64,000 nucleotides of DNA from Synechococcus sp. WH 8020 (GTDB lineage Bacteria; Cyanobacteriota; Cyanobacteriia; PCC-6307; Cyanobiaceae), in assembly GCF_001040845.1 (NCBI RefSeq), contig NZ_CP011941.1, positions 1,373,676-1,437,675 of the forward strand. The letters run 5' to 3'. A program made the position numbers and the translations under genes. Below the pieces are notes generated by a model. It saw nothing but the letters and a program-made list of their open reading frames with translations. It was not told where the DNA came from and ran no database searches. Below, piece by piece: positions 6,290-37,853 of the stretch (position 1 is its first letter; each line of letters starts with the position of its first letter).

Positions 6290-6319
6290 AGACCGATCAA
6301 GTCCCTCTCGGAGACACCC

Positions 6320-10981: not shown

Positions 10982-11185
10982 AGCAACAAGCACGAAGCGA
11001 AAATCAATTGTAGAAGATTTCGGAAGAATCTTGATTGTTCAAATCATTTTGGAATGTCACTGACTTAGGCAATTGCAATGCATGGAGCTACAGAGCGATT
11101 CAATAGACAAGCTGGGGCAATGCAATACCTCAAACAATTGGAAAGACTGCATTAGACATGCATATAACGCCAATCCTTTGCAGGG

Positions 11186-11352
11186 ATGACTGAAGCGATG
11201 AACGCGAGGCTGAGCTCACTGCCCTCATCAACAAGCTCTGTCGGATCAATGGCAAAGACTGGCCACGCGGGCATGCCGCAGAACTTGCACGACGGGCCGG
11301 TGTCTCCACTCAGGCCATCGACAGCCGCCGCAACACTGCCCTGAAAACGTAA
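11186..11352 (+). pseudogene. Frameshifted small helix-turn-helix-like gene
   Basis: The ATG at 11186 encodes MTEA, and the good coding frame then lies in another phase: DEREAELTALINKLCRINGK followed by DWPRGHAAELARRAGVSTQA and a stop at 11350-11352. The second half looks like a helix-turn-helix (AELARRAGVSTQAI). One missing base near codon 3-4 would join them. This is either a decayed gene or a sequencing indel. Confidence 0.4.
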
Positions 11353-11366
11353 GCCGAGGAGAACAC

Positions 11367-11464
11367 ATGGTCCGCACCACGCTCACCGCAGCAGCACTCG
11401 CCATCGGATCACCTTCAACCGAGATGGTCAATACACCCTGAATGTGTTCTGGAAAAAGCCGTAA
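11367..11464 (+). pseudogene. Frameshifted microgene
   Basis: The ATG at 11367 follows a strong GAGGAG site and encodes MVRTTLTAAALAI, then runs to a TGA at 11439-11441. The adjacent frame encodes ITFNRDGQYTLNVFWKKP and stops at 11462-11464. A signal-like N-terminus joined to a beta-strand end suggests a small exported protein broken by a frameshift. It lies 14 bases after the previous frameshifted gene. Confidence 0.35.
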
Positions 11465-11584
11465 CCCGTGAGCCAGGCTGCTGGGGCGAAGGTGCGTGCT
11501 GGTGGGGATGAAAGCAGCAGTGTGATCAGCTGACAGACCAGCCAAAGCTGATGAAGATGAAAGTCATCGCGCCTGCTCGAAGCC

Positions 11585-12244
11585 ATGACAAACGATTGCG
11601 TTGTGACCCCCGAACAGATCATGGGAACGTCGCAACAGAGTGCTAATGGCCACCGAAAAGGGACCACCTCGGCCTTTTTTCTCAACGCGGAATGGGCCCT
11701 CCGCAGGCCGTTGATAACGGATCAAGATCGACTGCAGGCTGAAGCCTGCAAACGCATGCTTAGGCGTCAAATGGTCGACATTGTGCGTTCCAACGGCGTC
11801 GGTGACCTGTTCGACTGGCGCGACCAGGACATCGCTGAGATCTGCCTGGAGGAGATGGCCAAGCGTGGCGATGAGGAGGTTCAGGGCTTTGACGATGAGA
11901 ATCTCAAGGCGCTGGCCTCAGGTGAGGTGTGCGGATTCACCGGTGAGGATCTGTTGCCGGGTGCTCAGGATTTCGGAGCATCAGCTGCCCAGACAGCTAC
12001 CAGTAGCCATCGCACCGATGCTTTGCTGCAGGAGCATCTCGAACGACAGCGGGGGGTGCGCAAGGGGACGTTCGGTGCTTTTTGCGCGAACTATCGACTG
12101 GCCAGGACGCAGCCGGATCCGGCTGCGACAGCAGCTGCGGCGATGATGCTTGAGCTGCTGCCTCACGTGCATCAGCTCGGATACCTCAAGTGGTGGGTGT
12201 GCCGTGATGCCTGGGCCGAGGCTCTGGTCGCGGCGGGGGCTTGA
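11585..12244 (+). CDS. Hypothetical protein (219 aa)
   Basis: A soluble 219-residue product, from ATG, clearly protein-like throughout: RRPLITDQDRLQAEACKRML, LFDWRDQDIAEICLEEMAKR and MMLELLPHVHQLGYLKWWVC. It contains a Ser/Ala/Thr linker in the middle and is Glu/Asp-rich. I do not recognise the family. It looks GC-richer than its neighbours and sits beside two frameshifted microgenes, which hints at acquisition. Confidence 0.65.
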   Translation: MTNDCVVTPEQIMGTSQQSANGHRKGTTSAFFLNAEWALRRPLITDQDRLQAEACKRMLRRQMVDIVRSNGVGDLFDWRDQDIAEICLEEMAKRGDEEVQGFDDENLKALASGEVCGFTGEDLLPGAQDFGASAAQTATSSHRTDALLQEHLERQRGVRKGTFGAFCANYRLARTQPDPAATAAAAMMLELLPHVHQLGYLKWWVCRDAWAEALVAAGA

Positions 12245-12328
12245 TGGCGGGCAAATCCCCCTATCGGGTGATGTCAGGACCGATCACCGCGATCAGCGTC
12301 CTTGCTCATAGGGAGCCCATAGCGCAGT

Positions 12329-12481
12329 ATGGAAAATCAAAAAACAAATGTCGAAGATATTGGATTAGAGGAGATCAGAGCAATCCGCGGTCAAATGAAG
12401 GATGCCAAAGAGAAAACCACTAGAACTGATGCCGAATTAGATGAACTTGCTGCAAGGCAAGCACAACATGCTGTTCTCTGA
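12329..12481 (+). CDS. Small coiled-coil protein (50 aa)
   Basis: The product starts MENQKTNVEDIGLEEIRAIR and continues GQMKDAKEKTTRTDAELDEL, ending AQHAVL. Heptad-like spacing of I/L/A residues predicts one amphipathic coiled-coil helix. The ATG has only a weak Shine-Dalgarno. Function unknown. Confidence 0.5.
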   Translation: MENQKTNVEDIGLEEIRAIRGQMKDAKEKTTRTDAELDELAARQAQHAVL

Positions 12482-12654
12482 GCAATCTCAGACTTGCAAA
12501 GTCGAATGTACGAATCTCCTTGATCATTGGTGGTGCATCAAGGCTTATTACTGCAATTGTTAATTGTGATCCGATGCTTAATTCCACTGGACGAGGGAAG
12601 AGTGCATTGGAAGACGAGAAGGCAGAGCAGACCGCTAGATGACATGATTGGCAG

Positions 12655-13188
12655 ATGAGTATTCGAAGTGTCCTGCGAATTGGTCACCCGTCTTTACGCG
12701 GGCGCTCGACGGAAATCCCTGATGATTGGTTCGGCAGTCAACGCTTGCAGACGCTGATAGACGACTTATTCGATACCAAATCAGCATGCTCTGGTGCAGG
12801 GATAGCGGCACCTCAGATCGGTGAGCCGTGGAGGGTTTTTGTGCTCGGAATGAAGCACAACCCTCGTTATCCCGAGGCTCCTCCATTGCCTGAGCGAGTA
12901 GTCATCAATCCTGTATTCAAAGCAATTGGCGAAGAATCGACGACTTTCTGGGAGGGGTGTCTAAGTGTCCCTGGATTGCGTGGTGAGGTAAAAAGATCCA
13001 AATACATTCACCTGCAGTATCAAGACCAAGACGGGGCTTCCCATCAGGAAGAATTGGAGGGGTTTCATGCACGAGCTATTCAGCATGAAGTTGATCACTT
13101 AGATGGAGTATTTTTCACTGACCGCTTAACCAGAACAGTGGCCTTTGGCTTTATTGATGAGCTTCAGGCTCATGGGCTTATTCCTTGA
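12655..13188 (+). CDS. def: Peptide deformylase
   Basis: All three PDF motifs are present: GAGIAAPQIG (motif 1), EGCLSVPG (motif 2, metal-ligand Cys) and QHEVDHLDG (motif 3, HExxH metal ligands and catalytic Glu). The enzyme removes the formyl group from nascent protein N-termini in the cytoplasm. The 177-residue length is normal. The sequence is slightly off the standard type (GAGIAAPQIG instead of GVGLAAPQ), which could mean it is a second paralogue. An inverted repeat follows five bases after the stop. Confidence 0.93.
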   Translation: MSIRSVLRIGHPSLRGRSTEIPDDWFGSQRLQTLIDDLFDTKSACSGAGIAAPQIGEPWRVFVLGMKHNPRYPEAPPLPERVVINPVFKAIGEESTTFWEGCLSVPGLRGEVKRSKYIHLQYQDQDGASHQEELEGFHARAIQHEVDHLDGVFFTDRLTRTVAFGFIDELQAHGLIP

Positions 13189-13192
13189 ATAA

Positions 13193-13239
13193 GCACCATT
13201 GGTATGCGGACAACGAGTTTGCACGTATACCAATGGTGC
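13193..13239. repeat. Perfect 13-bp inverted repeat after def
   Basis: GCACCATTGGTAT (13193-13205) is perfectly inverted at 13227-13239 with a 21-base loop. It starts five bases after the def stop codon. There is no T-run, so it is not a classic Rho-independent terminator. It may be a transcript-end hairpin, an operator or a remnant of a small element. Confidence 0.65.
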
Positions 13240-13758
13240 GATCTGATCGATGGTGGTGTCGCTGCCGTGGACTGGGTGAAGCGGTATGCGCAGAAGTGAC
13301 TCCCAAATCAGAGGAATTTGCAGTGGTTCAAGGCAGCAGCTGCACGGCTTGCTCCCAGCCACTGCTCGAAACTAAGAGCGATGCCATGAGGTCAAAAACG
13401 AATGATCCATGCGGTCTCCAATTTGGATTCACCATCGATCAGACGGTCTCAATCCACATCCCACCATCCGGGGCAAAGCCTCCACCTGGGCGGGCACCGT
13501 TTCCCAGGCTTCGATGGCGTTGTGGCGAAGCATCCTGCGAACGCCTGGCTGGGTGCAAGGACTGAGTTTGATGTGGTAGATCCAGCTATATCCAGAATGA
13601 GCATTACTCGGCTGAAAAGGTATTCACGGTAAATGTCATTGCTGTAGAGCCTTGACTTCCAATACATTCGCCATCCTCACCATTGAAGGAGTTACGGATT
13701 TAGCCAAAGCAATGACACCTCGCAATTGTTGGGCATCATTGCTTTGCAAAAAGAATAT
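13240..13758. other. Non-coding or decayed stretch
   Basis: About 520 bases without a convincing gene. Plus-strand frames run through but are Pro/Arg/Cys-rich with no start signal, and they begin inside the inverted repeat. I regard them as chance frames. Confidence 0.4.
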
Positions 13759-14142
13759 CTAGTTACCCCCGCAAGTTAGATTTCCATGCTCGTCCAGATC
13801 TGTATTGCCGGTGCAGTCTACAAGTGTTTCTCCTGGGCAACTTTGACCTTTCTCTATCGAGTAGCAGCCCCATCCATGACCATTACCATATGAAGAGCAA
13901 CAAAAAGTTCCTGCTCTATTTGTCCCAGAATTCTGTTTAAAAGAATTCGTTGATGCATGGCGCGTTCTCCTCGTTTTTTGCTTCTTTGTGCGAAGTTCCG
14001 CTTGAGCTGTTCTTCTAGACTGTGCCAATAGCAAATTGCAATTTTCATTTGCCTTGGCTTCACCTAATGCCAAAACCGCGCAAGGAAGAAACGCCAGTCC
14101 AATTAATTTTGTGATTAATTTAGGGTGAAAAAGAGAATTCAT
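13759..14142 (-). CDS. Exported cysteine-rich protein (127 aa)
   Basis: From ATG 14142 the product has a signal peptide (MNSLFHPKLITKLIGLAFLP then CAVLALGEAKA). The mature part has a basic middle (RTKKQKTRRTRHA) and a Cys/Gly-rich end: CCSSYGNGHGWGCYS, CPGETLVDC and LTCGGN. The six C-terminal cysteines suggest disulfides after export. The upstream in-frame extension is not protein-like. No family recognised. Confidence 0.6.
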   Translation of the reverse strand: MNSLFHPKLITKLIGLAFLPCAVLALGEAKANENCNLLLAQSRRTAQAELRTKKQKTRRTRHASTNSFKQNSGTNRAGTFCCSSYGNGHGWGCYSIEKGQSCPGETLVDCTGNTDLDEHGNLTCGGN

Positions 14143-14362
14143 TGTGATAGTTAAGTGAGTCAAAAGAGGATTGCTCCCCTGTGAACTCACCATCGCCGAA
14201 TTGACTGCATCACTCGATGACCACGCTCATAAGCGCCTGTGATCTTGCCCACACCCGAGAAGCCAGATCGCCACTTAGGTTGACAACGCATGAAACCCAA
14301 GCCGGTGTCTTCCGTTTCGCAGGCATCCGGGCAAATGCAGCCGGACCGACCCTTGATTCGAG

Positions 14363-14400
14363 GCTCCTACCTTTGCAAATTCGTTTGTAAACGTAGGAGC
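14363..14400. repeat. Long imperfect hairpin with TTCG loop
   Basis: Two 17-base arms, 14363-14379 and 14384-14400, pair with only two mismatches around a TTCG tetraloop. The outer eight bases (GCTCCTAC/GTAGGAGC) are perfect. It lies about 75 bases outside the left island repeat. A UUCG loop would be very stable in plus-strand RNA, but no T-run follows. Confidence 0.6.
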
Positions 14401-14474
14401 GATTTGATGCAGTAAGTGGTTTCAAGCATCTCGGTGTTTTCCGACAATGCCTGTCCTGGCTTGGTTTTTTGAAA

Positions 14475-14521
14475 CGCCCCCTGCTGGATTCGAACCAGCG
14501 ACCGACTGCTTAGAAGGCAGT
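14475..14521 (-). repeat. Distal att repeat: displaced tRNA-Arg 3' half
   Basis: This matches the anticodon-arm-to-acceptor part of the intact tRNA-Arg at 34809-34855 in the same orientation. The two differences, at 14484 and 14497, fall on opposite sides of the T-arm stem and keep it paired (C-G in place of A-U). No 5' half follows, so it is not a tRNA gene but the scar of integration. Confidence 0.92.
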
Positions 14522-19815: not shown

Positions 19816-21951
19816 TCATCCATTTGATGCGACGACTGCAGCTGCTTTTTGCATGTAGCTGCCCCACAGCTCAGCAACGAGACCTCCACTTGCGCCTTTT
19901 GAAGGGGTGTTGTCGTCGTTCCCCATCCAGATCGCCGTAACTAACTGACTTGATGGTGAATAACCGATAAACAAGGCATCCACCCCATTGTTAGTGGTAC
20001 CGGTTTTGCCGCGGGCATCGGCAACAACAGAAGAAGCCCTACCCGTACCGCTCTGAGCTGCATTGAAAAGAAGCCTGTCCATTGCCTTGGCATGTTCAGA
20101 TTTAATCAGCTGGCGGGAAAGTTCCCCGATAGGCACTGTGATGCCTCGCTCTGAACATTTCTGCAGGCTCTTGACTGAACCGCAGATTCCTAGGTCATAG
20201 ATGCGGCTAACACCATGCATCGGGACCGAACGGCCTCCATTCGCCACCACGGCATAAGCGCGGGCCAGCTCATACAAGTAAGTCTCACGACCTCCAAGCA
20301 TTGTGTTGTAATCGCTTTCAAGAGGTGTAGATACCCCCATTCGACGTGCCAACTTCACTGCGTTGGTAATACCGGCACGGTCGGCTAATCGCAGCGCTAC
20401 CACGTTTTCCGAGAAGGCAAAGCCGTTATCCATGGAGGTGTTCCCAGCCCCATTGCGGCAGCCAGCCACGTAAGCCAGCGGTGAGCAGGAGATTTGCTCA
20501 TTTGGACTAACCCCAGCTTCCAGAGCTGCAAGAAATGGAAAGAGCTTGAACGTGGAACCCGGCTGCCGCAGAGCCTGAACTCGATCAAAGCTTGATCGGC
20601 TGTAATCTCCGCCGCCCACATAGGCAAGTATTTCGCCAGTGTTGATATTGAGGGTTATAAGTGCACCTTGAGTCAGCCCAACTGCACCAGCGGGCCCCTT
20701 CAGAAAACTCTGAAGCTGAATATTCGCAAGCTCTTGAAGACGAGGATTGATGGTGCTGATCACCGCGTAGTTGCCAACGGATTCTTCAGTGCTGAGATTG
20801 AGGCCGAAGCGTGTGCCTTCAAGTTCCCCGCGCACGTAATCACTAAAGAAAGGGAAGCTGCTGAAGCTGGATTCGCGGCAGGCGGAGGGATCAATGTTGA
20901 GAGGCCGTCTCTGCGTATCAATTAGGCCTTGATCGCTCAATCCTCCCTGCTTATGCATCAGCTTGAGCACTAAATTTCGTCGCTCAAGACCAGCTCCAGG
21001 ATCTTTGCTATTGCAGGGGCTATAGCCGTTGGGGTTCGGAAGTAAGCCCACTAGGAAAGCGGATTGGCTTACATCAAGTTCGCTTGCCGACTTGCGGAAA
21101 TAAAGTTGTGAAGCTTGTTCAAAGCCTTCACTGCCAAGGCCAAGGTAGGCGCGATCGAGATAGAGCTTGAGGATGCGGTTTTTACTGAACCCCACCTCCA
21201 GCTGTAGCGCTACCCATAACTCTCTTAACTTTCGGGTAATTGTGAAATCGCGTCCCACTTCTGGGTAAACCATCCGTGCCACCTGCTGGGTGAGGCCGCT
21301 TCCACCTCCTGTACCCAGCAGGGCTGAACGGAAGGTCCCAAAAAAATCAATACCGCTGTTCCAGCCAAAGCGGGCTTCTTCTGAAGCAATCAGAGCTTGA
21401 CGTAAATGCAGGGGATAACTCCTCAGGCTGGGGAGTGCAGTTGAGGATCCCTCTTTGGCATCGATCTGACGGCCATCGAGAGAAAAGATCTTCACGGGGC
21501 CTGAAATGGAGCGGATCTTCGAGCCACCGCCAATACTTGCGGTCATGAGCATCCCGCCCACCAGAAGCGCCGAGCTGGCAAGAGCTGCAAGGCCCAGTAA
21601 ATAAACCAGCTGCCCTATCGGGCTGCGCGGATGCCTGTATCTGAATTCTGGAGCCTCTCCCCTCAGAGGCGAGCCAATGTTGACCGTATCCCCGTCTCGC
21701 AGCTGAATCCGGCGGATGCGACGGTCGCGGTGAAACAATCCATTCGCGGAGTTGAAATCCTCAAGAGTGAACTCTCGATCGCTGGGGCGCTGCTTCTCAA
21801 GGATCGCGTGAACTCTGCTGAGACTCAGCTCAGCCAGTGGAAGTTCACAGGCAGGGTCCCGTCCCAGTCGGTATCGAGAATCTTTTAGTTCAAGCGCATG
21901 TAAGCAACGTCCGCCAACCCATAGCTCCACATGGGCCTGGCTGTAATTCAA
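19816..21951 (-). CDS. FHA-domain class A penicillin-binding protein
   Basis: The 711-residue protein has an N-terminal FHA domain (about 20-95: GRD at 30-32, SRVH at 45-48, Asn70-Gly71), one membrane helix (about 114-137), a transglycosylase domain (about 165-350) and a transpeptidase domain (about 395-705). The FHA domain should bind phosphothreonine; the rest polymerises and cross-links peptidoglycan outside the membrane. Transpeptidase motifs are intact: STFK (Ser466), SEN (514-516) and KTGT (649-652). Transglycosylase has EEARF at 191-195 and GLTQQ, but the usual His-His after the Glu is Asn-Ser. It starts at TTG, divergent from the kinase operon. FHA-PBP fusions are known in cyanobacteria. 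Confidence 0.92.
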   Translation of the reverse strand: MNYSQAHVELWVGGRCLHALELKDSRYRLGRDPACELPLAELSLSRVHAILEKQRPSDREFTLEDFNSANGLFHRDRRIRRIQLRDGDTVNIGSPLRGEAPEFRYRHPRSPIGQLVYLLGLAALASSALLVGGMLMTASIGGGSKIRSISGPVKIFSLDGRQIDAKEGSSTALPSLRSYPLHLRQALIASEEARFGWNSGIDFFGTFRSALLGTGGGSGLTQQVARMVYPEVGRDFTITRKLRELWVALQLEVGFSKNRILKLYLDRAYLGLGSEGFEQASQLYFRKSASELDVSQSAFLVGLLPNPNGYSPCNSKDPGAGLERRNLVLKLMHKQGGLSDQGLIDTQRRPLNIDPSACRESSFSSFPFFSDYVRGELEGTRFGLNLSTEESVGNYAVISTINPRLQELANIQLQSFLKGPAGAVGLTQGALITLNINTGEILAYVGGGDYSRSSFDRVQALRQPGSTFKLFPFLAALEAGVSPNEQISCSPLAYVAGCRNGAGNTSMDNGFAFSENVVALRLADRAGITNAVKLARRMGVSTPLESDYNTMLGGRETYLYELARAYAVVANGGRSVPMHGVSRIYDLGICGSVKSLQKCSERGITVPIGELSRQLIKSEHAKAMDRLLFNAAQSGTGRASSVVADARGKTGTTNNGVDALFIGYSPSSQLVTAIWMGNDDNTPSKGASGGLVAELWGSYMQKAAAVVASNG

Positions 21952-22106: not shown

Positions 22107-22382
22107 TTGCAACGCCAACGGGACCCGTGGGAACCCTTCCGGCTTTGGCTGGCGTTCACGATCGGGCTTTATGCGATCCGAGCTTTCTTTGCCGCTACAT
22201 GGGTGGGGGCGATTCCAGGTTGGGTACTTTTAGTGATGGTGCTAATTGCGCTTGCTCTGGCTAGCTCAGCATTGCTGTTCCCCAGTCGGGTGGTGCCGTG
22301 GCGTGCTGACGATGGCGGTTGGTGGAACGATGTGTATGACGACTGGCGACTTTGGTGGCGCCGGCGGCAGGGTGAACCATGA
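22107..22382 (+). CDS. Small membrane protein leading the kinase operon
   Basis: The 91-residue product (TTG start, AGGA about eight bases upstream) has two membrane helices (RLWLAFTIGLYAIRAF and GWVLLVMVLIALALASSALL) and a short cytoplasmic Trp/Asp/Arg-rich tail ending WRLWWRRRQGEP. It overlaps the FHA gene by four bases (ATGA), so the two are translationally coupled. Function unknown; the position suggests a membrane partner of the kinase module. Confidence 0.75.
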   Translation: MQRQRDPWEPFRLWLAFTIGLYAIRAFFAATWVGAIPGWVLLVMVLIALALASSALLFPSRVVPWRADDGGWWNDVYDDWRLWWRRRQGEP

Positions 22383-23083
22383 AGAGTCCAGCCCGGCTGG
22401 TGCTTGCGAGTGATCGCAGCAAGGCGGCTCCTCTGGACCCGGTCCAACAACTCACAATTGGCTGCGCCAAGTCCAATGTTCTCTGCCTAGCCAACCAGAA
22501 AGGCGTATCCGACCACCACGCTGTTGTGCGCTATTCCCGCAGCCAGGGTTGGCTGGTGTGCAACTGGCAGAGCAGTGACGGCACCTTTTTGGAAGGGCGG
22601 CCTGTAAAACGTTGCCAGCGCCTTGAGGACGGCGACGAGATTCGCCTTGGTCTCAAAGGTCCGGTGCTGGTGTTCGAGCTGTCGGAAGCAGCACTTCCGT
22701 CACCGACTTCAACGGCAAACGCAGCAGCCGTTGCTTCAGCCCCTCAAAGCAGTATTCAACTCGGAGAAAACAACTTGGCTGTGGCCGAGATCCGCTCTGT
22801 GGCTGTGCAGAGCCTTCCCCGCAATCCACATGTTTTCAGTTGGTGGTTGCTGATTTGCCTCGGGGGGCTGCTTCTGCTTCCGTTCCCGCTGGTGTTCTGG
22901 CCACTGCAGCTATCCGCCCTGGCGGTCTTGATCGTGCTGGGGTCTCGTAAGCAGCACCTACTGAGCGTGGTGCTGCTCGACGGTCGAGCTTTCCGCCATG
23001 GCTTTGCCAACTGGCGCACGGCATTGGCACATCGCAACGGCATCCGCCGGGCCATCGGCCACCAAGGATCTGAAACCAAATGA
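22379..23083 (+). CDS. FHA-like domain membrane protein
   Basis: The 234-residue product has an N-terminal FHA-like domain (about 8-100) and one or two membrane segments at about 152-195 (FSWWLLICLGGLLLLPFPLV). FHA landmarks are partly degenerate: the usual Gly-Arg is Gly-Cys (28-29), Ser-x-x-His is SDHH (44-47), and the Asn loop is SDGTF (66-70). The missing Arg normally contacts phosphate, so binding may be altered or lost. It overlaps both neighbours by four bases, so it is part of the kinase-vWA-PP2C operon. Confidence 0.85.
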   Translation: MKSPARLVLASDRSKAAPLDPVQQLTIGCAKSNVLCLANQKGVSDHHAVVRYSRSQGWLVCNWQSSDGTFLEGRPVKRCQRLEDGDEIRLGLKGPVLVFELSEAALPSPTSTANAAAVASAPQSSIQLGENNLAVAEIRSVAVQSLPRNPHVFSWWLLICLGGLLLLPFPLVFWPLQLSALAVLIVLGSRKQHLLSVVLLDGRAFRHGFANWRTALAHRNGIRRAIGHQGSETK

Positions 23084-24405
23084 CTTGGCTACTCCCCCAA
23101 GGCAAGAGCCTGATGTTTGAAGGTCTTGATCATCCGCTTCACATTGTGCGGGGGATCGGAGGCGGAACCCAGGGCCAGGTGTACTCAGTGGAGTTGGGCC
23201 AGCCCGGCATCGGCGAACAGTTGGCGCTGAAGTGGTATCTGCCCGGTTGCATCGCCAGGGATCCGCAGCTTCGGAACCGTCTCAGCCAGAGCATCAGGCT
23301 GGGAGCCCCCAACAGCGATTTCCTCTGGCCGATGGCTTTACTTGAGCCGCTGGAATCCCAGCAGCGTGGTTTTGGCTATCTGATGGCACTGCGTCCGGAA
23401 GGCTTCGTGGGTGCCAACCTGCACGCCGGTGGCGCCTTAGAGATCAGCCTCCAGAACGTGCTTAAGGCCTGTTTTCACTTGGCGGAGGCCTTTCATCAGT
23501 TGCACCTCAAAGGTCTCTGCTACAAAGACATTTCGCTCGGCAATTTGTTCCTTGCAGCCCGTAGCGGGCGGATCCTGATCTGCGACAACGACAACGTTGA
23601 CATCGATGGCAAGAGCCGCGGCAGCGTACTTGGCACACCGGGGTTTATGGCTCCTGAGGTGCTGCTTGGGCAATCACGGCCAGGAACTAGCAGCGATTTG
23701 TTCTCGTTGGCGGTACTGCTATTTCGTCTTTTAACTCGCCATGATCCCTTCCGCGGTGCCCGGGAGCTGGCTGTGCGCTGCCTGGATGAACCAGCAAGGC
23801 GCCGCCTCTACGGAGAAGAAGCCTTGTTTATTTTCGATCCGGATGATGCCGCTAACCGGCCTGACCCCGTCGAGCACAGCGCTCCTTTAATTACCTGGCC
23901 GATCTATCCCCGCGGATTGCAGCAGCTGTTCGAGTTGAGCTTCGGGGCCGGCCTGCGCCAGCCTGAGGAAAGAGCGCTTACCGGGCAATGGAAGCAGGCT
24001 CTAGCTCGCTGCCTTGATCAACGGCAACTTTGTCATCACTGCGGTCAGGAGGTCTTTGCGGATCTCGATAGCTCAAACTGCTGCTGGAATTGCGGCAGTG
24101 CTCTGCAGCAGCCAATGGAGCTTCAGCTACCCCGTGGACGAGTAGTAGCCGCTGCGGGCAACGCAGTTCAGCCACATCATTTCAATCTCTTGGCAGGTGA
24201 GGCGATTGATCTGCCGCTGGCAGAGTTTGTGCCCCATCCGAGCGATCCGCAGCTACTAGGGCTGAAAAACCTCAGCGATTATTCCTGGCAAGGCGTGCTC
24301 ATCGATGGCCGCAGGATCACGTTGGAACCAGGGAAAAGCTTTAATTTTGCTGCCCTACAACAGGTAGAGAGCCACACCGGAGCGATGCTGGTGATGCGCC
24401 CGTAA
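23080..24405 (+). CDS. Ser/Thr-kinase-like protein with zinc ribbon (TerY-P type)
   Basis: The 441-residue protein has a kinase domain (about 18-300) with a Gly-rich loop (GIGGGTQGQVYS), Lys51 (LALKWY), the catalytic loop YKDISLGNL (Asp150, Asn155), a metal loop CDNDN in place of DFG (Asp169), and GTPGFMAPE. A CxxC-x14-CxxC zinc ribbon follows at about 318-339, then a C-terminal domain of about 70 residues. The catalytic Lys, Asp and Asn are kept, so it could be active despite the atypical DND. Zinc-ribbon kinases of this kind occur in TerY-P triads with vWA and PP2C proteins, which follow immediately here. Confidence 0.88.
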   Translation: MTWLLPQGKSLMFEGLDHPLHIVRGIGGGTQGQVYSVELGQPGIGEQLALKWYLPGCIARDPQLRNRLSQSIRLGAPNSDFLWPMALLEPLESQQRGFGYLMALRPEGFVGANLHAGGALEISLQNVLKACFHLAEAFHQLHLKGLCYKDISLGNLFLAARSGRILICDNDNVDIDGKSRGSVLGTPGFMAPEVLLGQSRPGTSSDLFSLAVLLFRLLTRHDPFRGARELAVRCLDEPARRRLYGEEALFIFDPDDAANRPDPVEHSAPLITWPIYPRGLQQLFELSFGAGLRQPEERALTGQWKQALARCLDQRQLCHHCGQEVFADLDSSNCCWNCGSALQQPMELQLPRGRVVAAAGNAVQPHHFNLLAGEAIDLPLAEFVPHPSDPQLLGLKNLSDYSWQGVLIDGRRITLEPGKSFNFAALQQVESHTGAMLVMRP

Positions 24406-24408
24406 GTC

Positions 24409-25164
24409 ATGTCTTTCCCCAACGTTCGGCTGAGCAACCGACCGCTTCACTTCATCTATCTCTGCGACTGCTCAGGCTCGATGGCGGCCCAGGGCAAGAT
24501 TCAGGCGCTTAACCAGGCGATTCGCCAATCGCTTCCAGGAATGGCGGCAGTGGCACAACAGAACCCAGAAGCCAGGGTCCTAGTGCGCGCCGTGAGCTTC
24601 TCCGATCAGGCGATCTGGCACCTAGCCGAACCCACACCGGTGCAAAAGTTGCAATGGCTTGACCTAAAGGCCGACGGCATTACAGCCATGGGCTCTGCTC
24701 TCGAACTGGTAGCCAGTGTCCTGCAATCTCCCCCAATGGAAGAGCGGGCACTGCCGCCGGTGTTGGTACTGATCTCCGATGGCCAGCCCACCGATGACTT
24801 CGAAACCAGCCTGGCCAAACTGATGCGATTGCCTTGGGCCCAAAAGGCAGTACGTCTAGCGATCGCAATGGGGCATGACGCTGACGTCGATGTGCTGCAG
24901 CAATTCATCGGACCAGAGCCGGCAGGGCGCGGCCGATCTCCCCGCAGGCCGTTGCAGGCCAGTAACGCCACCACTCTGGCCGAGTACATCCAGTGGGCTT
25001 CCACTGCCGTGGTAGGTGCAGCCTCAATGCCAGCCAGCCGTGTAGCGATGCCTGGAGAGATTCCTTCGGAGGGTCTCGACGTGAGCGAAGGCAACATCCC
25101 GCTACCGGATCTGCCACCGACCCTGCTTGATCCGATCGATGACGTAGGTCCACTGGTTTGGTGA
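24409..25164 (+). CDS. TerY-like vWA domain protein
   Basis: The 251-residue protein is almost entirely a von Willebrand A domain. The MIDAS metal site begins DCSGSM (Asp20, Ser22, Ser24), continues with the Thr in KADGITAMGSAL, and has LISDGQPTDDFE. This is the TerY-type vWA found beside kinases and PP2C phosphatases. vWA domains bind partners through a divalent metal. It starts three bases after the kinase stop and overlaps the phosphatase start. A Pro-rich C-terminal tail follows. Confidence 0.9.
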   Translation: MSFPNVRLSNRPLHFIYLCDCSGSMAAQGKIQALNQAIRQSLPGMAAVAQQNPEARVLVRAVSFSDQAIWHLAEPTPVQKLQWLDLKADGITAMGSALELVASVLQSPPMEERALPPVLVLISDGQPTDDFETSLAKLMRLPWAQKAVRLAIAMGHDADVDVLQQFIGPEPAGRGRSPRRPLQASNATTLAEYIQWASTAVVGAASMPASRVAMPGEIPSEGLDVSEGNIPLPDLPPTLLDPIDDVGPLVW

Positions 25165-25958
25165 GTGGCGTTTGGGAGCCAGCCCTGGCAAGCAGTGTGA
25201 TCGGTGCGGCGCACCAGCGGCAGGGCAAACCCTGCCAAGACGCCTCTATCTCCTGCATCCTCGAGGCAGGCTGCAATCAATTACAGCTAATGGCTGTAGC
25301 TGATGGCCATGGCGGAAGCCGCTACTGGCTGAGCCAAGTGGGAAGTGCCCTGGCCTGCATCCAGGCAAAAAAGTCAGTGAGCAAGGTGCTGGACCGAACT
25401 CCTCTGACGGCGATCGATCGCTGGCGGCAGCTGTTGCAGCAAGAGCTACCTGCTGCAATCCATAGCGGCTGGATGACCGCGATTGAAGCTGATTGGCGTA
25501 ACCGGCAGGAACAAAATCAGCCTTTTTCTCCGCTCACCTACGGCTGCACTCTTGGCCTAGTTCTGATGGCACCGCAATGGTGGGGCTGCACGGGCCTTGG
25601 AGACTGGGACCTGGCTGGTGTTGAAAGAGGAGGTGAGGTGCGCCTGCTCAGCCAGGAAGGCGATCTCCATCAGGTTGCCGGCGAAGCCACCGCCAGCCTT
25701 TGCCAGCCCATGAATCAGCAGCTCTGGCTAGCTCGGACGCAATTGCATCAGCTCGATGCAGATGATCAATTAAACGTATTAATACTGAGCACAGATGGAG
25801 TGCGCAAATCTTGCGCGACTGATGCCGACTATCTACAGCTGTGCGCAGGCGCGGCAGAACTCAAGGACTCGATGGAACTTTCGCAGGGCCTCGCTCAGAT
25901 CACCGCAGAAGGAAGTGGTGATGACGTGTCGATGGCGATTGCACTACGAAGAAATTAA
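25161..25958 (+). CDS. PP2C-type protein phosphatase
   Basis: A GTG at 25161 overlaps the vWA stop (GTGA), giving 265 residues; a TTG one codon earlier is possible. PP2C motifs: an Asp near the N-terminus (GKPCQDASIS), VADGHGGS, GLGDWDLAG, ILSTDGV and GSGDDVSMAI, so the metal-binding aspartates are all present. It should remove phosphates placed by the upstream kinase. This completes the kinase-vWA-phosphatase triad. It is shorter than stand-alone PP2C signalling proteins but normal for this context. Confidence 0.9.
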   Translation: MSGVWEPALASSVIGAAHQRQGKPCQDASISCILEAGCNQLQLMAVADGHGGSRYWLSQVGSALACIQAKKSVSKVLDRTPLTAIDRWRQLLQQELPAAIHSGWMTAIEADWRNRQEQNQPFSPLTYGCTLGLVLMAPQWWGCTGLGDWDLAGVERGGEVRLLSQEGDLHQVAGEATASLCQPMNQQLWLARTQLHQLDADDQLNVLILSTDGVRKSCATDADYLQLCAGAAELKDSMELSQGLAQITAEGSGDDVSMAIALRRN

Positions 25959-27451: not shown

Positions 27452-28627
27452 TTGACACCGCAGGAGCAAAACCAATACCGAGCGATTGGTGGGCGACTTG
27501 CGGTTGTTCTGAGGCAACGCAAGGGCCAGGTCTCATCCGCTGCACGATTGCAGGCAATAGCGGCTGATCTTCTTGGTGATAGAACGGAGTTGCTTGTTCC
27601 GTTGAAAGATCTTGTCAGTCGGCCGGGTTTTGAGTTGCTGGTGGAAAAGGCCGGGAGCGGGCGAGGAGTCGTGGAGCGTCGCGCCCTGCTCGCAGACATG
27701 GAAAGGACTTATTCCCCGGCGGTGATCAATGCCCTAGAGGAGTTAGTGAACGGGTTCTTAGATCTACCTAAGGCTGCCAGTTCATTACCAAAACACGAGA
27801 ACGTTGAACTTGATTCAACTTTGATGACAGATGATGATCTCTCAGAATATTCTGTGAAACAGCAAAGTCAGCGCTTAGTAGCTGCTGAATCTGAAGACAA
27901 GCTGCAGCAACCGATCACCGGCACTAGGCCTTTTGCGTTGGTGCTATCTGGCTGTGCTGCCATTGCAACGTTGGTCGCGATCAGCACGGTAGTCGTACGT
28001 AGCGAATTGATTTGTACTGCTTTCGGGCTTTGCCAAGGAAGTAGCCAGCCCACGGCTGTGCAACAAACTCTGCAGGCTGCTCGCCTTGCTGTATCTGAAC
28101 TGGAGAACGCAGATAGTTTGATGAGCTACCGCAGTGCCGCTAACGAACTGGAGAAGGAACTTCAGAGACTCCGTTCAGAAACCTTGTCGCCAGAGCAACG
28201 GGAGCAGCAATCGAACTTGTCCAAAATCAGACGGGAGGCTCGAGCCGCTGTCTTACAAGGTGAGGCAGACCAGCAGCAGCTGAAAAAAGCCGCTGCTGCA
28301 TTGGCCTCAGCACGTCAATTGAAAGGCGTTGACAAGAAGGTTCAGCTCAACACAGCCGAGAAGACATTGCAGTCAATCGCCGCAGAAAGCTTTACAGCAG
28401 CAGAAGCAAACAGTTTGCGCGCGCAAGTGGCCAAACTCCATGCAGAGTCGCCAAAGATTGCTGAAGAACCAGTTGAGGAGGTTCAGAGCCAAAGACGTCC
28501 GAGTTCTGCAGCTTCGTCTAGTCAATCTCCCACTGGCGCCATCGCTACACCCCCGGCAGCGAGGCCAGCCACGCCAGCGCCTGCAACTGATTCCGGCGGA
28601 GAATGGCGCGATCAGCCCTTATTCTGA
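27452..28627 (+). CDS. Membrane protein with coiled coil and Pro/Ala-rich tail
   Basis: A 391-residue product from TTG. The N-terminal helical region (about 1-105, e.g. RRALLADMERTYSPAVINAL) is predicted cytoplasmic. One membrane helix follows (about 166-187, FALVLSGCAAIATLVAISTV), then a long Gln/Ala/Glu-rich coiled coil (about 205-335) and a Pro/Ala/Ser-rich end. The topology suggests a link between cytoplasm and cell wall. No family recognised; the N-terminal domain may be a protein-interaction module. It sits between the kinase operon and protease genes. Confidence 0.8.
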   Translation: MTPQEQNQYRAIGGRLAVVLRQRKGQVSSAARLQAIAADLLGDRTELLVPLKDLVSRPGFELLVEKAGSGRGVVERRALLADMERTYSPAVINALEELVNGFLDLPKAASSLPKHENVELDSTLMTDDDLSEYSVKQQSQRLVAAESEDKLQQPITGTRPFALVLSGCAAIATLVAISTVVVRSELICTAFGLCQGSSQPTAVQQTLQAARLAVSELENADSLMSYRSAANELEKELQRLRSETLSPEQREQQSNLSKIRREARAAVLQGEADQQQLKKAAAALASARQLKGVDKKVQLNTAEKTLQSIAAESFTAAEANSLRAQVAKLHAESPKIAEEPVEEVQSQRRPSSAASSSQSPTGAIATPPAARPATPAPATDSGGEWRDQPLF

Positions 28628-28728
28628 GGCTAGGTTTGATTTTGCTAGCCCAATGGATGTTTGGGTAGGGGATAAAAATGCGCTTAACATCTAGCTCATT
28701 AGTCTGAACTTAATTGAGGATGCTCAGC

Positions 28729-29289
28729 ATGAAAAGCGGATTAAAGCAGCTTTTGGCGATTCCCTTTTTTGCATTCATTATCGTGCCCACCGCCCACGCG
28801 GCACCTGCCGCTGGCGGTTTTGTCTGCGGTACTGCCCAAGGCGTTCCATCTACTAATGCAATCAAGCGTGATGGCAGTCAGGTCCCTGTGATCCGCTGGA
28901 CTAGTACCACCTTTGAATCAGCAGGTTGGAGTCAAGAACGCCGCTGTAAAGAGGTCTCTAATCGATTCGACACTTATTTAAAGCAAGGCCGCCTGGCCTA
29001 TATCACCACGGGGCGGATAAATGGTCTGCCGGTAATTTGCACCACAAATCGAAGAGGAGGTGCATGCGATGGGCTGCTTTACACCCTGAAGCCTGGTCAG
29101 AACGCCACAGCAACTCTGAGGAATTTGCTTGAAATTCGTGTAAAAGCTCGTGGTCCACTTAACGAAACCACCAGTCGCCTTTACGTAAGTCTTGATGAAT
29201 TGATGAAAACCGCTCAGACCAATAGCAGTGAGGCAGTTTCGCCAAAACCCACTGACACAAAATCTCAATCAACTAGTCCTCTTTGGTGA
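28729..29289 (+). CDS. COP23 domain exported protein
   Basis: The 186-residue product has a signal peptide (MKSGLKQLLAIPFFAFIIVP) and a COP23 domain. Landmarks: FVCGTAQGVPST, PVIRWTSTTFESAGWSQERR, CKEVSNRFDTYL, ITTGRINGLPVICTTNRRG and LLYTLKPGQNATATLRNLLE, with four conserved cysteines. COP23 was named from a circadian-oscillating membrane protein of a unicellular cyanobacterium; its biochemical function is unknown. Its stop overlaps the next gene's ATG (TGATG), so it is coupled to the protease. Earlier starts (28714 TTG, 28720 ATG) are possible. Confidence 0.88.
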   Translation: MKSGLKQLLAIPFFAFIIVPTAHAAPAAGGFVCGTAQGVPSTNAIKRDGSQVPVIRWTSTTFESAGWSQERRCKEVSNRFDTYLKQGRLAYITTGRINGLPVICTTNRRGGACDGLLYTLKPGQNATATLRNLLEIRVKARGPLNETTSRLYVSLDELMKTAQTNSSEAVSPKPTDTKSQSTSPLW

Positions 29290-31683: not shown

Positions 31684-31891
31684 GCCTTAATTAATCTCAA
31701 ATAAGATTCTACAAGCCAATAATAATCAATACCTGCCCAGGCTAGTTCGTAATAATCGGCAATAAGCGAAACTACCTTTCGATGCGAAACAAGCACTCGT
31801 CGCTTTACTGAACGAGTCGGGAGGCCATTAAAATATATGTTAAGTTTGAAATTATTTAGACTAAGTGGGTATAGTTTAATTTATCTAAAGC

Positions 31892-32158
31892 ATGTTTGCC
31901 AAGTATCTGCTTTCAGCTTTGTTTCTTATTTCAATTCATGGAGTAAAAGCTGAGCCCACAAACGAAAAACCCTTGATTGGCGCATCTATCATTGAGGGGC
32001 CTGCAGCTTCTGGTACAGGCGTAGTTATTGGAAAAAATAAAAATGTATACACATTTTTAACAGCCGCGCATGTTGTTAGTGATGCATCAAGCGCTGAACC
32101 CATTCGGCACGGGCCAACTGATCGATGTCATCTCCCTGGCCACCGGTCTGATCGTTGA
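31892..32158 (+). pseudogene. Truncated trypsin-like protease
   Basis: The first about 67 codons are a normal exported protease start: a signal peptide (MFAKYLLSALFLISIHGVKA), GTGVVIGKNKNVYTFLTAAH (His60) and VVSDASS. From about 32097 the frame reads SAEPIRHGPTDR and similar, which is the antisense of a neighbouring gene and not protease-like. Asp and Ser of the triad are absent. The gene has been cut at a module junction. Confidence 0.85.
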
Positions 32159-33418: not shown

Positions 33419-33490
33419 CCATGGTGTGCCGAGTCATACGGAGGCATAAAAAGACCCCCGCCGGCGTGACCCAGAAGGAGACGCGACAAA

Positions 33491-34684
33491 TCAGATGTGC
33501 TCCAGCACCGATTCACTTCGAGCCCATTCGTAATTGCTCTCATGGGTGCTAAGGCTGTGACCCATCGCCATGCAGATCACGTCATTGCGATGCCCCAACC
33601 TGTGCGCTCTCAAGCTGTATGCATTGCGGAATGAATAAGGCCTTAACCATTCACCGCGTTCCTCACAGACCTTCTGCAAGCGAAGCCATTCGGGCTGACG
33701 CATGAGAAATGTTTTCACCGATGAGGCATCACTGATTGGAGGAAGGTCCAACTGACCGATCGCCATCGCACCAGCCAAATTCCAATCGACAACATCACCC
33801 GCCAAATCTTTCAGCGGTAGTGGCATCAACCAACGCGGATCGGTCTTGGTGGAGCCGCAAACCTTCTCGTAAGTACAAAATAGCACCTGTTGTCTAGTGG
33901 AGGGATGCTCTCTTGCCACAAGGTGATTCAGCTCTTCAGGCCTTAGGCCGTACAGAGCCATCAATCTCAGGGCGTTCTTCCAGCGTTGGCAGCGAACGTC
34001 ATTGGGCAGGCTGTCGATCAGACGAATCAGCTCTGCATCAGTGGGTGTTGCCACAATGCGGCGCTTGGGCTTGGTGCCCTTCATCTGCTTTGCAACCCGA
34101 GCGGTCACCATCCAAGTTTCAGCTGGCAGTCCATGGACCTCGATGGCGTAATCAAGGAATTTCGAAACCGCGTTGATGGCCACCTCCCGGCGGCGGTGAT
34201 AGTCCTGCCATTTCTCGGCCACATGACTAAGAAGCTCCCTGGCATTAACAGGAGGTGCTGTTGAGCCCAATCGCTCAACCGTGAAAGCTAGAAATGGGCC
34301 GTAATTATCTCTCCAAGTCTTTGGTTTGATTCCATTGGTGATCTGCAAATCAGCCTGGAATTTCTCGGCCAATGAAGTCCAGCGGCTTGGATTAGACGGC
34401 TTGCTTGTTATCGCAGCAGCTGGTGCCTGAACACGAGCCAAGGCATCACGCAAGTCATATCCATTGCTCACCATCTGGTGCAGCTCTGTTATCAGAGCAA
34501 CGGTCTGTGGAACCGTGTCAGCAGCCCATGCGAGCGGCAGCGTGATGGTTGAGGCGCTAGCTCCACCCGCTCCAGAGCGAACACTCAAAAACACCTTCCC
34601 TCGCATGTTTCGCACAGACCAGCCCTTGGGGCAGGAAGTCCTCATACGACAGACCCAGCCTGATGTTTTGGACTTTGCTGCCAT
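33491..34684 (-). CDS. int: Tyrosine recombinase (island integrase)
   Basis: The 397-residue product has a typical integrase layout: arm/core DNA-binding region (about 85-180) and catalytic domain (about 200-395). Catalytic-site elements: Arg in YGLRPEELNHL; Arg in YSFRNAYSLRAHRLG (the usual first His is Tyr or Ser); His in MAMGHSLSTHES; and a likely nucleophile Tyr in NYEWA. It acts at the tRNA-Arg repeat next to it. The upstream region holds three GTGAGAGC-like sites that the protein may bind itself. It reads away from the tRNA, with a terminator between. Confidence 0.9.
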   Translation of the reverse strand: MAAKSKTSGWVCRMRTSCPKGWSVRNMRGKVFLSVRSGAGGASASTITLPLAWAADTVPQTVALITELHQMVSNGYDLRDALARVQAPAAAITSKPSNPSRWTSLAEKFQADLQITNGIKPKTWRDNYGPFLAFTVERLGSTAPPVNARELLSHVAEKWQDYHRRREVAINAVSKFLDYAIEVHGLPAETWMVTARVAKQMKGTKPKRRIVATPTDAELIRLIDSLPNDVRCQRWKNALRLMALYGLRPEELNHLVAREHPSTRQQVLFCTYEKVCGSTKTDPRWLMPLPLKDLAGDVVDWNLAGAMAIGQLDLPPISDASSVKTFLMRQPEWLRLQKVCEERGEWLRPYSFRNAYSLRAHRLGHRNDVICMAMGHSLSTHESNYEWARSESVLEHI

Positions 34685-34747
34685 GAGAGTGAGAGCGCGA
34701 AGCAGTAGGTCTCTTTTTTATAGCACAGGTGAGAGCGGAATGAGAGC
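34685..34747. promoter_or_regulatory. Putative integrase arm sites, proximal end
   Basis: Three direct copies, GAGAGTGAGAGC (34685-34696), GTGAGAGC (34729-34736) and TGAGAGC (34741-34747), lie between the integrase start and the tRNA. The same 12-mer occurs in inverted form at 14634-14645 at the other end. They are good candidates for arm-type binding sites, and they also overlap the integrase promoter. Role inferred. Confidence 0.6.
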
Positions 34748-34763
34748 AGATGCATGTTGGCAA

Positions 34764-34797
34764 TAAAAAAGGGGCTCGGCTTTCACTGAGACCCCTT
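34764..34797 (-). terminator. Rho-independent terminator after tRNA-Arg
   Basis: On the minus strand AAGGGG-T-CTC, a loop, then GAG-CCCCTT followed by TTTT forms a stem with one bulge and a T-run. It lies 12 bases after the tRNA-Arg 3' end and upstream of the integrase, so it should stop tRNA transcripts from running into int. Confidence 0.85.
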
Positions 34798-34808
34798 GCT
34801 GTGATTAG

Positions 34809-34882
34809 CGCCCCCTGATGGATTCGAACCATCGACCGACTGCTTAGAAGGCAGTTGCTCTATCCAGCTGAGCTAAGGGAGC
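34809..34882 (-). tRNA. tRNA-Arg(UCU)
   Basis: On the minus strand the 74-base sequence folds as a full cloverleaf. Acceptor GCTCCCT/AGGGGGC has one G-U pair. The anticodon arm ACTGC-CTTCTAA-GCAGT carries anticodon UCU, and the T-arm GATGG-TTCGAAT-CCATC is standard. The encoded end is the discriminator G. Its 3' half is the island's attachment site, so this copy carries an island-derived 3' end. Confidence 0.97.
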
Positions 34883-34945
34883 ACTCATTCATTTTGACAG
34901 TCGACGCACCCAACCCCGCTTAAGCTTGAAAGCTGTGCGGTACTG

Positions 34946-35773
34946 ATGATGGCCCCCAGCCGGCTTAACGACAGCCACAAGCAGGAGATTGTGGAGCGGT
35001 ACCGCGCTGGAGAAACAAGCGCCCAGATTGCCGCGGCCTATAGCTGCAGCACCAATACGGTGAGTCGAACCGTCAGGTCCCTACTGAGCCCTGAGGAGTA
35101 CGCCGAGCTCAAGACCCAGCGATCCTCGAAAAGCTCTGGTTTAGAGAGCCCTGCTCACGCAAGCTTGTCTTTGAAGGACAGTGTGCCTGAAATCGATACC
35201 GCTGAGGTCAGCTGTCCAGAGAGCACACAAACCAACCTCGAAGATTCCAGAAGCGAGGCACCAAGCGCCAGGGAAGAGGAAGGAGTTAAGAGCAGTGGTA
35301 ACGACGGTAATGATGAGGGCCAAATCCTCGCTCTCGATGATGCCGAGGATTTTGGTGGCTCCGATCTTGACGACAACGAGACCTTCAACACGGACGATGA
35401 GACTGTCTTTCATGAAATAGCGGTACTACCGGTCGACCTTCCTCAGGTCACTACCCAACAAGTGATTTGCCGACCCTTCGCATCTGAACTGTTGCCAGAC
35501 AGCGTCTACATGCTGGTGGACAAAACGGTGGAGCTGGACCCACGGCCGCTCAGTGAGTTCCCTGAATTAGGCCTCAGTGATCCTTCAGAGCAGCAACGTC
35601 AGGCTTTATGCCTTTATGCAAGTCCACGCGCTGCTAAACGCCAATGCAGCCGTAGTCAGCGCGTGATCAAAGTTCCAGACACCCAGGTCTTTGAGCAAAC
35701 ATCCCCTTACCTGCTCGCCCGTGGCATCACGCACTTGGTGGTTGAAGGATCCCTGTTTGCACTCAAGTCCTGA
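34946..35773 (+). CDS. Helix-turn-helix domain protein (275 aa)
   Basis: The N-terminus (about 8-58) is a helix-turn-helix typical of transposase/resolvase-like DNA binding (KQEIVERYRAGETSAQIAAA then CSTNTVSRTVRSLL). A long acidic, low-complexity linker follows (about 60-160, rich in E/D/S), then a C-terminal domain with CRPFASELLPDSVYMLVDKT and PYLLARGITHLVVEGSLFAL. It is probably a conserved cyanobacterial DNA-binding protein of unknown target. Confidence 0.8.
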   Translation: MMAPSRLNDSHKQEIVERYRAGETSAQIAAAYSCSTNTVSRTVRSLLSPEEYAELKTQRSSKSSGLESPAHASLSLKDSVPEIDTAEVSCPESTQTNLEDSRSEAPSAREEEGVKSSGNDGNDEGQILALDDAEDFGGSDLDDNETFNTDDETVFHEIAVLPVDLPQVTTQQVICRPFASELLPDSVYMLVDKTVELDPRPLSEFPELGLSDPSEQQRQALCLYASPRAAKRQCSRSQRVIKVPDTQVFEQTSPYLLARGITHLVVEGSLFALKS

Positions 35774-35774
35774 T

Positions 35775-36029
35775 TCAGCGGTCTTGATCAGGAGCTGGCG
35801 CCAAGACCGCGGCCACACTGCCGCCGCTGACAATCCCCAACACCAAGCTGACACCAACAATGAAGCCTGAGGGAAGGGGCGCAGAACGCCCAACGCCAAG
35901 ATTGAGGCGATGGCGATCATTCAGATTCTGAGCACCAAGGCAGAGAACCAACATCAGAGTGAGCCCAGTCCCCAAACTCAACAAAAGCAGTCTCAGGCGG
36001 ATGAGCATCGCAATCGCTTTTGATTCCAT
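35775..36029 (-). CDS. Small two-helix membrane protein
   Basis: The ATG at 36029 overlaps the rsmI stop (TGATG). It gives 84 residues with two hydrophobic segments (about 9-31, LIRLRLLLLSLGTGLTLMLV; and 54-80, SGFIVGVSLVLGIVSGGSVA), like LapA/DUF1049-type inner-membrane proteins. It is translationally coupled to rsmI. Function unknown. Confidence 0.7.
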   Translation of the reverse strand: MESKAIAMLIRLRLLLLSLGTGLTLMLVLCLGAQNLNDRHRLNLGVGRSAPLPSGFIVGVSLVLGIVSGGSVAAVLAPAPDQDR

Positions 36030-36895: not shown

Positions 36896-36918
36896 AATGG
36901 CTCCGCCCAGATCAAACC

Positions 36919-37836: not shown

Positions 37837-37853
37837 ACCTGGGTGGGCGCCTC

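Follow-up and report, generated by a model that had tools for sequence, protein, structure and literature searches.

What might a protein kinase, a vWA protein and a PP2C phosphatase have to do with a cell-wall synthase that carries its own phosphopeptide reader? The question is raised by a stretch of 64,000 nucleotides from Synechococcus sp. WH 8020 (contig NZ_CP011941.1, positions 1,373,676 to 1,437,675), here called the window, in which five tightly packed genes at 22107-25958 lie next to a divergent gene for an FHA-class A penicillin-binding protein (PBP). Because this FHA-PBP is linked to the block, the most likely reading is that of a phosphorylation-gated peptidoglycan synthase, which we consider probable, if by no large measure. 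The block would be a variant of TerY-P that works like the PknB-FhaA system without being a member of it. Its features are as follows.

19816..21951, minus strand: FHA-class A PBP, a paralogue specific to the block, with FHA domain, one hydrophobic segment, transglycosylase and transpeptidase (Pfam FHA 3e-14, Transgly 2e-41, Transpeptidase 3e-26)
22107..22382, plus strand: small membrane protein of 91 amino acids (open reading frame and hydropathy; strongly conserved)
22379..23083, plus strand: FHA-membrane protein, an FHA domain with a hydrophobic segment (Pfam FHA 8e-13; pocket partly degenerate)
23080..24405, plus strand: Ser/Thr kinase with zinc ribbon and predicted C-terminal FHA-fold domain (Pfam Pkinase 3e-15)
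24031..24093, plus strand: kinase zinc ribbon CxxC...CxxC, C318 C321 C335 C338 (alignment)
24106..24402, plus strand: predicted cryptic FHA-fold domain of the kinase, residues 343-441 (predicted model)
24409..25164, plus strand: TerY-like vWA protein with intact metal ion-dependent adhesion site (MIDAS) residues (Pfam VWA 7e-7)
25105..25131, plus strand: vWA tail motif PDLPPTLLD around Thr238 (codon 25120-25122), candidate phospho-docking site (alignment)
25158..25958, plus strand: PP2C phosphatase without the C-terminal tail of its relatives (Pfam PP2C_2 4e-25)

Conservation and linkage of the block

All five open reading frames were confirmed. The gene for the 91-amino-acid membrane protein overlaps the FHA gene by 4 bp, as the FHA gene does the kinase gene; 3 bp separate kinase and vWA, and the PP2C start (TTG 25158 or GTG 25161) falls inside the 3' end of the vWA gene. 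An earlier note on this DNA, made from the letters alone, had described such a tightly packed operon with a divergent FHA class A PBP and a kinase-vWA-PP2C triad. This description holds: Pfam finds FHA, Transgly and Transpeptidase within the divergent gene, and Pfam together with residue alignments identifies a TerY-P-type triad with FHA and membrane partners. The 91-amino-acid protein has no Pfam family above the cut-off and no PADLOC, NCBIfam or PHROGs match. The FHA-membrane protein has strong matches (E 1e-32 or better, at least 51% identity) in 7 of 386 genomes of the phylum, all belonging to the window's family, and the remaining 31 matches among these genomes are at the level of the FHA domain.

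A genome scan yielded 77 loci, 32 of them picocyanobacterial (L032-L063, including the two Prochlorococcus loci L052 and L053) and 45 distant (L064-L108), and co-occurrence was counted in one draw of 201 family genomes. The two sets share members, L013 and L061 among them, and are not independent; common descent also raises the counts given here. The FHA-PBP is divergent from the membrane protein, FHA protein and kinase genes in all 30 non-Prochlorococcus picocyanobacterial loci, and vWA and PP2C follow the kinase in all 28 of these loci with contig past the kinase. FHA, transglycosylase and transpeptidase lie within one open reading frame in 29 of the 30; L059 ends at a contig edge. Since the whole block is conserved across loci, chance is excluded. 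Among the family genomes, kinase and vWA occur in the same 36; a block-type PBP (53-81% identity) is present in 34 of these 36 and in none of the 165 kinase-negative genomes, whose best PBP among those listed reaches 44% identity. In all 34 the PBP gene adjoins that of the kinase (29 by fetched locus, 5 by coordinates). The FHA-PBP is therefore a linked partner of the triad, as the note had supposed.

The distribution within the window's own genus adds to this. The kinase is found in 1 of 31 genomes, all 30 others being without it, and the block-type PBP in 1 of 10 sampled, the other 9 lacking it. In the kinase and PBP trees alike, the window is sister to L032 (97/93 and 98/93, respectively). 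Because both genes occur in one genome of the genus and both trees agree on the sister, kinase and PBP most simply arrived together, and this apparent joint transfer is a stronger argument for linkage than the locus counts. The alternative would be loss of kinase and PBP in all other genomes of the genus.

Reader domains, catalytic residues and a candidate phosphosite

The phosphothreonine-binding pocket of FHA domains is made up of G-R, S-R-x-H and N-G residues. To judge from the alignment, the PBP FHA domain has this residue set, with G30, R31, S45, R46, H48, N70 and G71 invariant in 31 of 31 sequences, whereas the FHA-membrane protein does not: at its Asn position N is found in 3 of 31 and D in 20 of 31, with D in the window, so that Asn is lost in 28. 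The transglycosylase and transpeptidase domains of the PBP carry catalytic-type residues and fit class A. E191 is kept in 31 of 31, and SxxK, SxN and KTG (motif names from general knowledge) in all 25 aligned rows; six rows were unaligned there, and SxxK and KTG are present in three of them (L050, L054, L057).

The MIDAS residues DxSxS...T...D of the vWA protein are kept in 31 of 31. Its tail ends in N(I/V)PLPDLPPT..D...W, in which LPPT is invariant, and is preceded by a linker that varies (L045 has P for N). The tail Thr is present in 30 of 30 picocyanobacterial loci and in the window, and the Asp at +3 in 26 of 30 and in the window, being absent from L054-L057; pT-x-x-D is a known FHA preference (Rad53 FHA1). 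This Thr was retained as a candidate because the linker before it varies; in the same scan for conserved threonines, those within enzyme motifs were not considered further, being probably structural. In addition, all TerY-like vWA rows listed, which span several phyla (L032-L108; positions 25159-25161 in the window), end in a C-terminal Trp, as VW, IW or EW, with L102 looking frame-shifted. It is possible that this Trp is a general docking signal.

All 33 sequences of the kinase have K51, D150, N155, D169 and T186, and the zinc-ribbon cysteines 318, 321, 335 and 338 are invariant in 46 of 46 aligned kinases, including those of Chloroflexi, Methylococcales and Alphaproteobacteria. No transmembrane segment was seen and no PASTA match was obtained in Pfam, the kinase having instead the zinc ribbon and the predicted FHA-fold. 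The 50 matches listed in a structure search with the whole kinase are kinases or kinase complexes. When the last 99 residues were modelled alone (AF2 pLDDT 92), Foldseek ranks 1 to 7 were all FHA, with a best E of 0.034 and none below 0.001; VIA-align gave Z 9.6 (root-mean-square deviation 3.2 A, 94 aligned), with nearly all listed entries FHA. Models that lack a clear match commonly reach a best Z of 7-8, and the uniformity of the FHA list therefore outweighs the score itself. The C-terminus is thus predicted from this model to be a cryptic FHA-fold domain which, if real, would change the annotation of the kinase subfamily in the sampled phyla. A sequence-detectable FHA domain is not supported here, as profile comparison with the FHA domains of the block was negative, and the canonical phosphothreonine residues are not obvious by eye.

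The metal-binding residues of the PP2C are conserved at the first sites in 31 of 31, at the middle in 27 of 27 aligned and at the last pair in 26 of 27 aligned (four rows unaligned). The protein extends past its catalytic domain in all 28 non-Prochlorococcus loci, by 146-274 residues in the 26 uncut copies, while the tails of L042 and L032 (39 and 83 residues) are cut by contig ends. A hydrophobic segment in this tail passes a simple threshold in 21 of 28.

Proposed phosphorylation control of a peptidoglycan synthase and its alternatives

Architecture, mostly intact catalytic-type and phospho-reading residues, linkage and co-occurrence are what can be read from the sequences. On these we propose that the block serves picocyanobacteria as an accessory module for control of the envelope, with a dedicated class A PBP as the output of the switch. 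The cytoplasmic kinase would assemble with the metal-binding vWA protein by way of its zinc ribbon and FHA-fold tail, and would phosphorylate a threonine in the complex, the best candidate being Thr238 in the LPPTLLD tail of the vWA protein. The N-terminal cytoplasmic FHA domain of the PBP could then bind this phosphothreonine, which would recruit or gate the PBP at a membrane complex with the 91-amino-acid protein and the FHA-membrane protein, and the gated PBP would alter peptidoglycan polymerisation and cross-linking. The PP2C, probably membrane-anchored in relatives, would reverse the phosphorylation. Kinase activity, phosphosite, FHA-ligand pair, direction of control and stimulus are, like the joint transfer, what we infer. 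If this is true, phosphorylation control is wired straight into a cell-wall synthase. The variant would offer a concrete output for TerY-P in a class A PBP whose phosphopeptide-reader pocket is intact, and vWA Thr238 is a concrete candidate phosphosite. Relatives carrying the block under culture-like strain names include Synechococcus WH 5701 and Vulcanococcus limneticus LL.

Several known systems resemble parts of this module. In E. coli, the kinase YegI, the phosphatase PphC and the vWA protein YegL form a set of the same three kinds, and biochemical work on the kinase and the phosphatase has been published; to our knowledge this set has no FHA-PBP partner. With the TerY-P triad (Anantharaman 2012 and Gao 2020, both as cited in PMC11090510) the block shares a TerY-like vWA protein with MIDAS, a PP2C and a Ser/Thr kinase with C-terminal zinc ribbon, as far as the available text of PMC11090510 defines these and an OB-fold variant. 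It differs in that the window kinase continues into a predicted FHA-fold, in the FHA-PBP, FHA-membrane and 91-amino-acid partners, and in the conserved core site that the block occupies in relatives. The actinobacterial PknB-FhaA system (PMC6180346, available parts) likewise combines a Ser/Thr kinase, an FHA phospho-reader and a peptidoglycan output; in the present block, however, no PASTA domain is matched, the synthase itself carries the reader, a vWA protein is present and no kinase transmembrane segment is seen. A survey of cyanobacterial kinases (PMC2176072) describes, in the text available, FHA domains on cyanobacterial kinases and no FHA-PBP, and a limited literature search of partly available sources retrieved nothing that joins FHA-PBP or TerY-P with peptidoglycan.

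Several observations weigh against a phosphorylation-gated synthase. Two genomes of one genus (G029, G120) have the triad kinase and vWA without a block-type PBP, and the Prochlorococcus locus L052 (10 kb upstream) has the triad without the PBP, FHA-membrane and 91-amino-acid genes; L053, with 0.55 kb upstream, is too short to judge the PBP. By our count, a second FHA-PBP paralogue (38-44%) occurs in about 63 of the 165 triad-less genomes, and a PBP-borne FHA domain therefore does not require the triad kinase. Three of the 34 genomes (G062, G140, G163) give a PBP match split in two, and a TGA falls inside the match in G062, G132 and G175, so that some copies may be disrupted or wrongly assembled. 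At residue 29 the FHA-membrane protein has Arg in 25 of 31 sequences; this Arg is lost in 6, and the window has Cys. The Prochlorococcus vWA protein has the LPPT tail too, one of the 27 aligned PP2Cs lacks the last Asp pair, and the window PP2C is short, the window and both Prochlorococcus copies extending 8-16 residues beyond the catalytic domain. The PADLOC match of the vWA protein to TerY is weak (E 0.002). Finally, no FHA-PBP lies near the kinase in the 45 distant loci, where flanks vary; because flank lengths differ, these absences are weak.

Some of these points would fit an FHA-PBP that is merely an ancestral neighbour answering other kinases, the triad being unrelated in function. The paralogues in triad-less genomes imply that PBP FHA domains have other partners, and triad genes without a block-type PBP (L052, G029, G120) point the same way. 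The window genome itself has a second FHA-class A PBP (C1:979347-981413) with FHA, transglycosylase and transpeptidase domains and FHA motifs intact by eye; it is 41% identical to the block PBP, and its relatives occur without the triad. We nevertheless regard a mere inherited neighbourhood of this kind as quite unlikely, in view of the co-occurrence with adjacency in all 34 genomes that have both, the apparent joint transfer into a genus otherwise without the kinase, the divergent arrangement, the two FHA proteins per block and the conserved Thr tail of the vWA protein.

Another possibility is anti-phage defence, with the PBP as a guarded or executed wall component or a passenger. The earlier note had held that the triad has no clear biochemical role, a statement that is out of date: in published tests, as available in parts of PMC7699616 and PMC10889362, TerY-P triads of vWA, PP2C and kinase confer phage resistance. 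An output beyond phage defence is described as hypothetical in the text available. An integrase gene also lies near the triad both in the window strain and in Prochlorococcus L052 (31% identity between the two, E 2e-45). The kinase tail nonetheless differs from that reported for the defence form, being a zinc ribbon with a predicted FHA-fold as opposed to an OB-fold (PMC11090510, available text). PADLOC gives no clear recognition as a defence system: the kinase is best matched to the MAD6 and PD-T4-6 kinases, the vWA protein weakly to TerY and the PP2C to none.

The surroundings in relatives speak against defence as well. They were judged on three 21-kb loci (L034, L041, L061) annotated by conservation, loci with short flanks being left aside; a first neighbourhood clustering was noisy, as overlapping frames of open reading frames rich in guanine and cytosine (GC) clustered too, and a filtered pass was used beside it. 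In all three, the block lies beyond groEL/groES- and atpD/atpC-like genes (names given by sequence inspection) on one side, with further conserved genes opposite and the FHA-PBP always there, and the flank genes are matched in 16 to 20 other loci at similar offsets. In relatives, then, the block looks like a stable chromosomal locus and not a variable island, and defence-island placement is not supported there; the island is a carrier in the window strain only. Since relatives with enough flank keep the block at one and the same site, surrounded by core genes, it is probably physiological and not a defence cassette, and a defence role is considered unlikely.

A further gene is conserved in this neighbourhood.

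27452..28627, plus strand: partner gene "G7", with N-terminal domain, hydrophobic segment and long tail (iterated profile)

G7 follows the PP2C in relatives. A rhomboid-domain gene with a G7-type N-terminal region adjoins the FHA-PBP (L034 5500-6687, L061 5226-6554), and an iterated profile of the window gene matches the N-terminal parts of this gene and of the relatives' G7. Direct matches are weaker: the PBP-adjoining gene matched the window gene at E 0.002 and the G7 of L034 not at all. A pTxxD-like motif, looked for by eye in a few G7 sequences, was found in that of Prochlorococcus alone and is not claimed.

FHA proteins other than PBPs occur near some triads. Among the 45 distant loci, four have an FHA protein near a kinase (L077, L087, L090, L093), the other 41 having none at threshold. 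In the three alphaproteobacterial loci L087, L090 and L093 a cyclase-FHA protein is divergent from a TerY-P-type kinase; in L077 an FHA-FHA-ABC protein stands beside another kinase, with the triad kinase about 7.5 kb away. An FHA-FHA-ABC transporter is also encoded in Prochlorococcus L052, at a distance of 4.8 kb from the triad. This suggests that FHA effectors are recurrent partners of triads. It is tempting to speculate, with considerable reserve, that triads of the TerY-P type act as a portable phospho-relay: the kinase, which has a cryptic FHA-fold tail of its own, would phosphorylate the tail of the vWA protein, and this tail would dock on exchangeable FHA effectors. Equally tentatively, most picocyanobacterial carriers might use a class A PBP as the effector, Prochlorococcus an FHA-FHA-ABC transporter and some Alphaproteobacteria a cyclase-FHA protein encoded beside the kinase. 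If true, the relay would amount here to a direct phosphothreonine switch on a peptidoglycan synthase.

The island in the window strain

That the block of the window strain sits on a mobile island, as the earlier note had stated, is upheld by a tRNA-end duplication, a recombinase and an empty site in sibling genomes.

14475..14521, minus strand: left island end, a 47-bp copy of the tRNA-Arg 3' end, 96%
33491..34684, minus strand: tyrosine-recombinase-like integrase adjoining the tRNA (phrog_1 E 1e-10)
34808..34882, minus strand: tRNA-Arg(TCT), integration site and right island end

The island spans 14475-34855 (20.4 kb), the tRNA-Arg(TCT) 3'-end repeat being placed at 14475-14521 and 34809-34855 (96%). 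The two copies differ at two positions in the T stem, where the changes seem to compensate each other, so that the tRNA end may have come in with the element itself. The tRNA site was compared in six sibling genomes (L110-L115). Two of them (L110, L113) have an empty site, where the aligned window sequence breaks off at about 10,049 and resumes at about 34,757, with 602 bp and 169 bp between the two parts. In L111, L112 and L114 the alignment restarts at or near the tRNA and does not resolve the left edge. L115 (G219) has the recombinase region 33490-38339 in common at 89% with different cargo, so that the island type is reused, with the same recombinase and tRNA. Tycheposons, the tRNA-integrated islands of marine picocyanobacteria, likewise have a tRNA-end duplication, a recombinase beside the tRNA and variable cargo; the window recombinase is assigned by profile and one homologue. 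A paper on a Helicobacter island (PMC4978471) and a survey of prokaryotic serine proteases (PMC2605481) served, in their available parts, as further background.

The GC content is 0.58-0.59 over 22-26 kb, while 2-kb stretches elsewhere in the island, such as 16-20, 26-28 and 30-32 kb, have 0.38-0.47; because of this difference the island is a mosaic. The window PP2C stops at 25958. GC falls at this point and the next gene is trypsin-like, which probably marks the edge of a cassette.

It is possible, though doubtful, that in the window strain the block is a decaying island passenger, non-functional here and functional in relatives. The missing PP2C tail at this edge and Cys at residue 29 of the FHA-membrane protein would be in keeping with decay, as would the end branches of the window, 0.23 and 0.25 in the kinase and PBP trees against medians of 0.053 and 0.029. 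Yet every open reading frame of the block is open, the overlapping gene junctions are kept, and the catalytic-type residues of kinase, vWA, PP2C and PBP are intact.

The island also carries five trypsin-like open reading frames and one fragment, and of the six matches that one trypsin-like query has in the genome, four sit within it. The earlier note had taken the company of these proteases to suggest an envelope stress or conflict system; if it were island-wide, the triad would control them. The note's suggestion to search for the block elsewhere stood for the FHA-PBP, which recurs near the triad in related picocyanobacteria, and failed for the proteases: trypsin profiles have no match in the 30 non-Prochlorococcus loci (17 with about 10 kb on both sides, the rest with less) and match the two Prochlorococcus loci alone. 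As part of the block module the proteases are accordingly rejected. L052 has enough flank and is without the PBP; it has, beside its triad, trypsin-like genes, a COP23 gene, a trypsin-TPR gene and a G7 relative, and the trypsin-like genes of L053 also adjoin the triad. These Prochlorococcus loci and the clustering in the island agree with protease control, which is, given that the trypsin profiles match none of the 30 other loci, very unlikely.

Some minor features of the region may be added. Because the sibling gap begins near 10,050, a further 4.4 kb to the left of the repeat (10050-14475) is also absent at the empty site. It includes a peptide deformylase gene (12655-13188), and similar deformylase matches occur elsewhere in the genome, one in two pieces. 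Positions 1-10000 contain no open reading frame longer than about 200 amino acids, and yet the DNA aligns at 70-94% in 4 of the 6 siblings, which could reflect many small genes or something else. A COP23-family gene lies at 28714-29289, its counterpart near the triad of L052 being 52% identical. The trypsin-like fragment (31889-32155) is seemingly cut near 32095 at a change in composition, possibly a junction between cargo and recombinase module.

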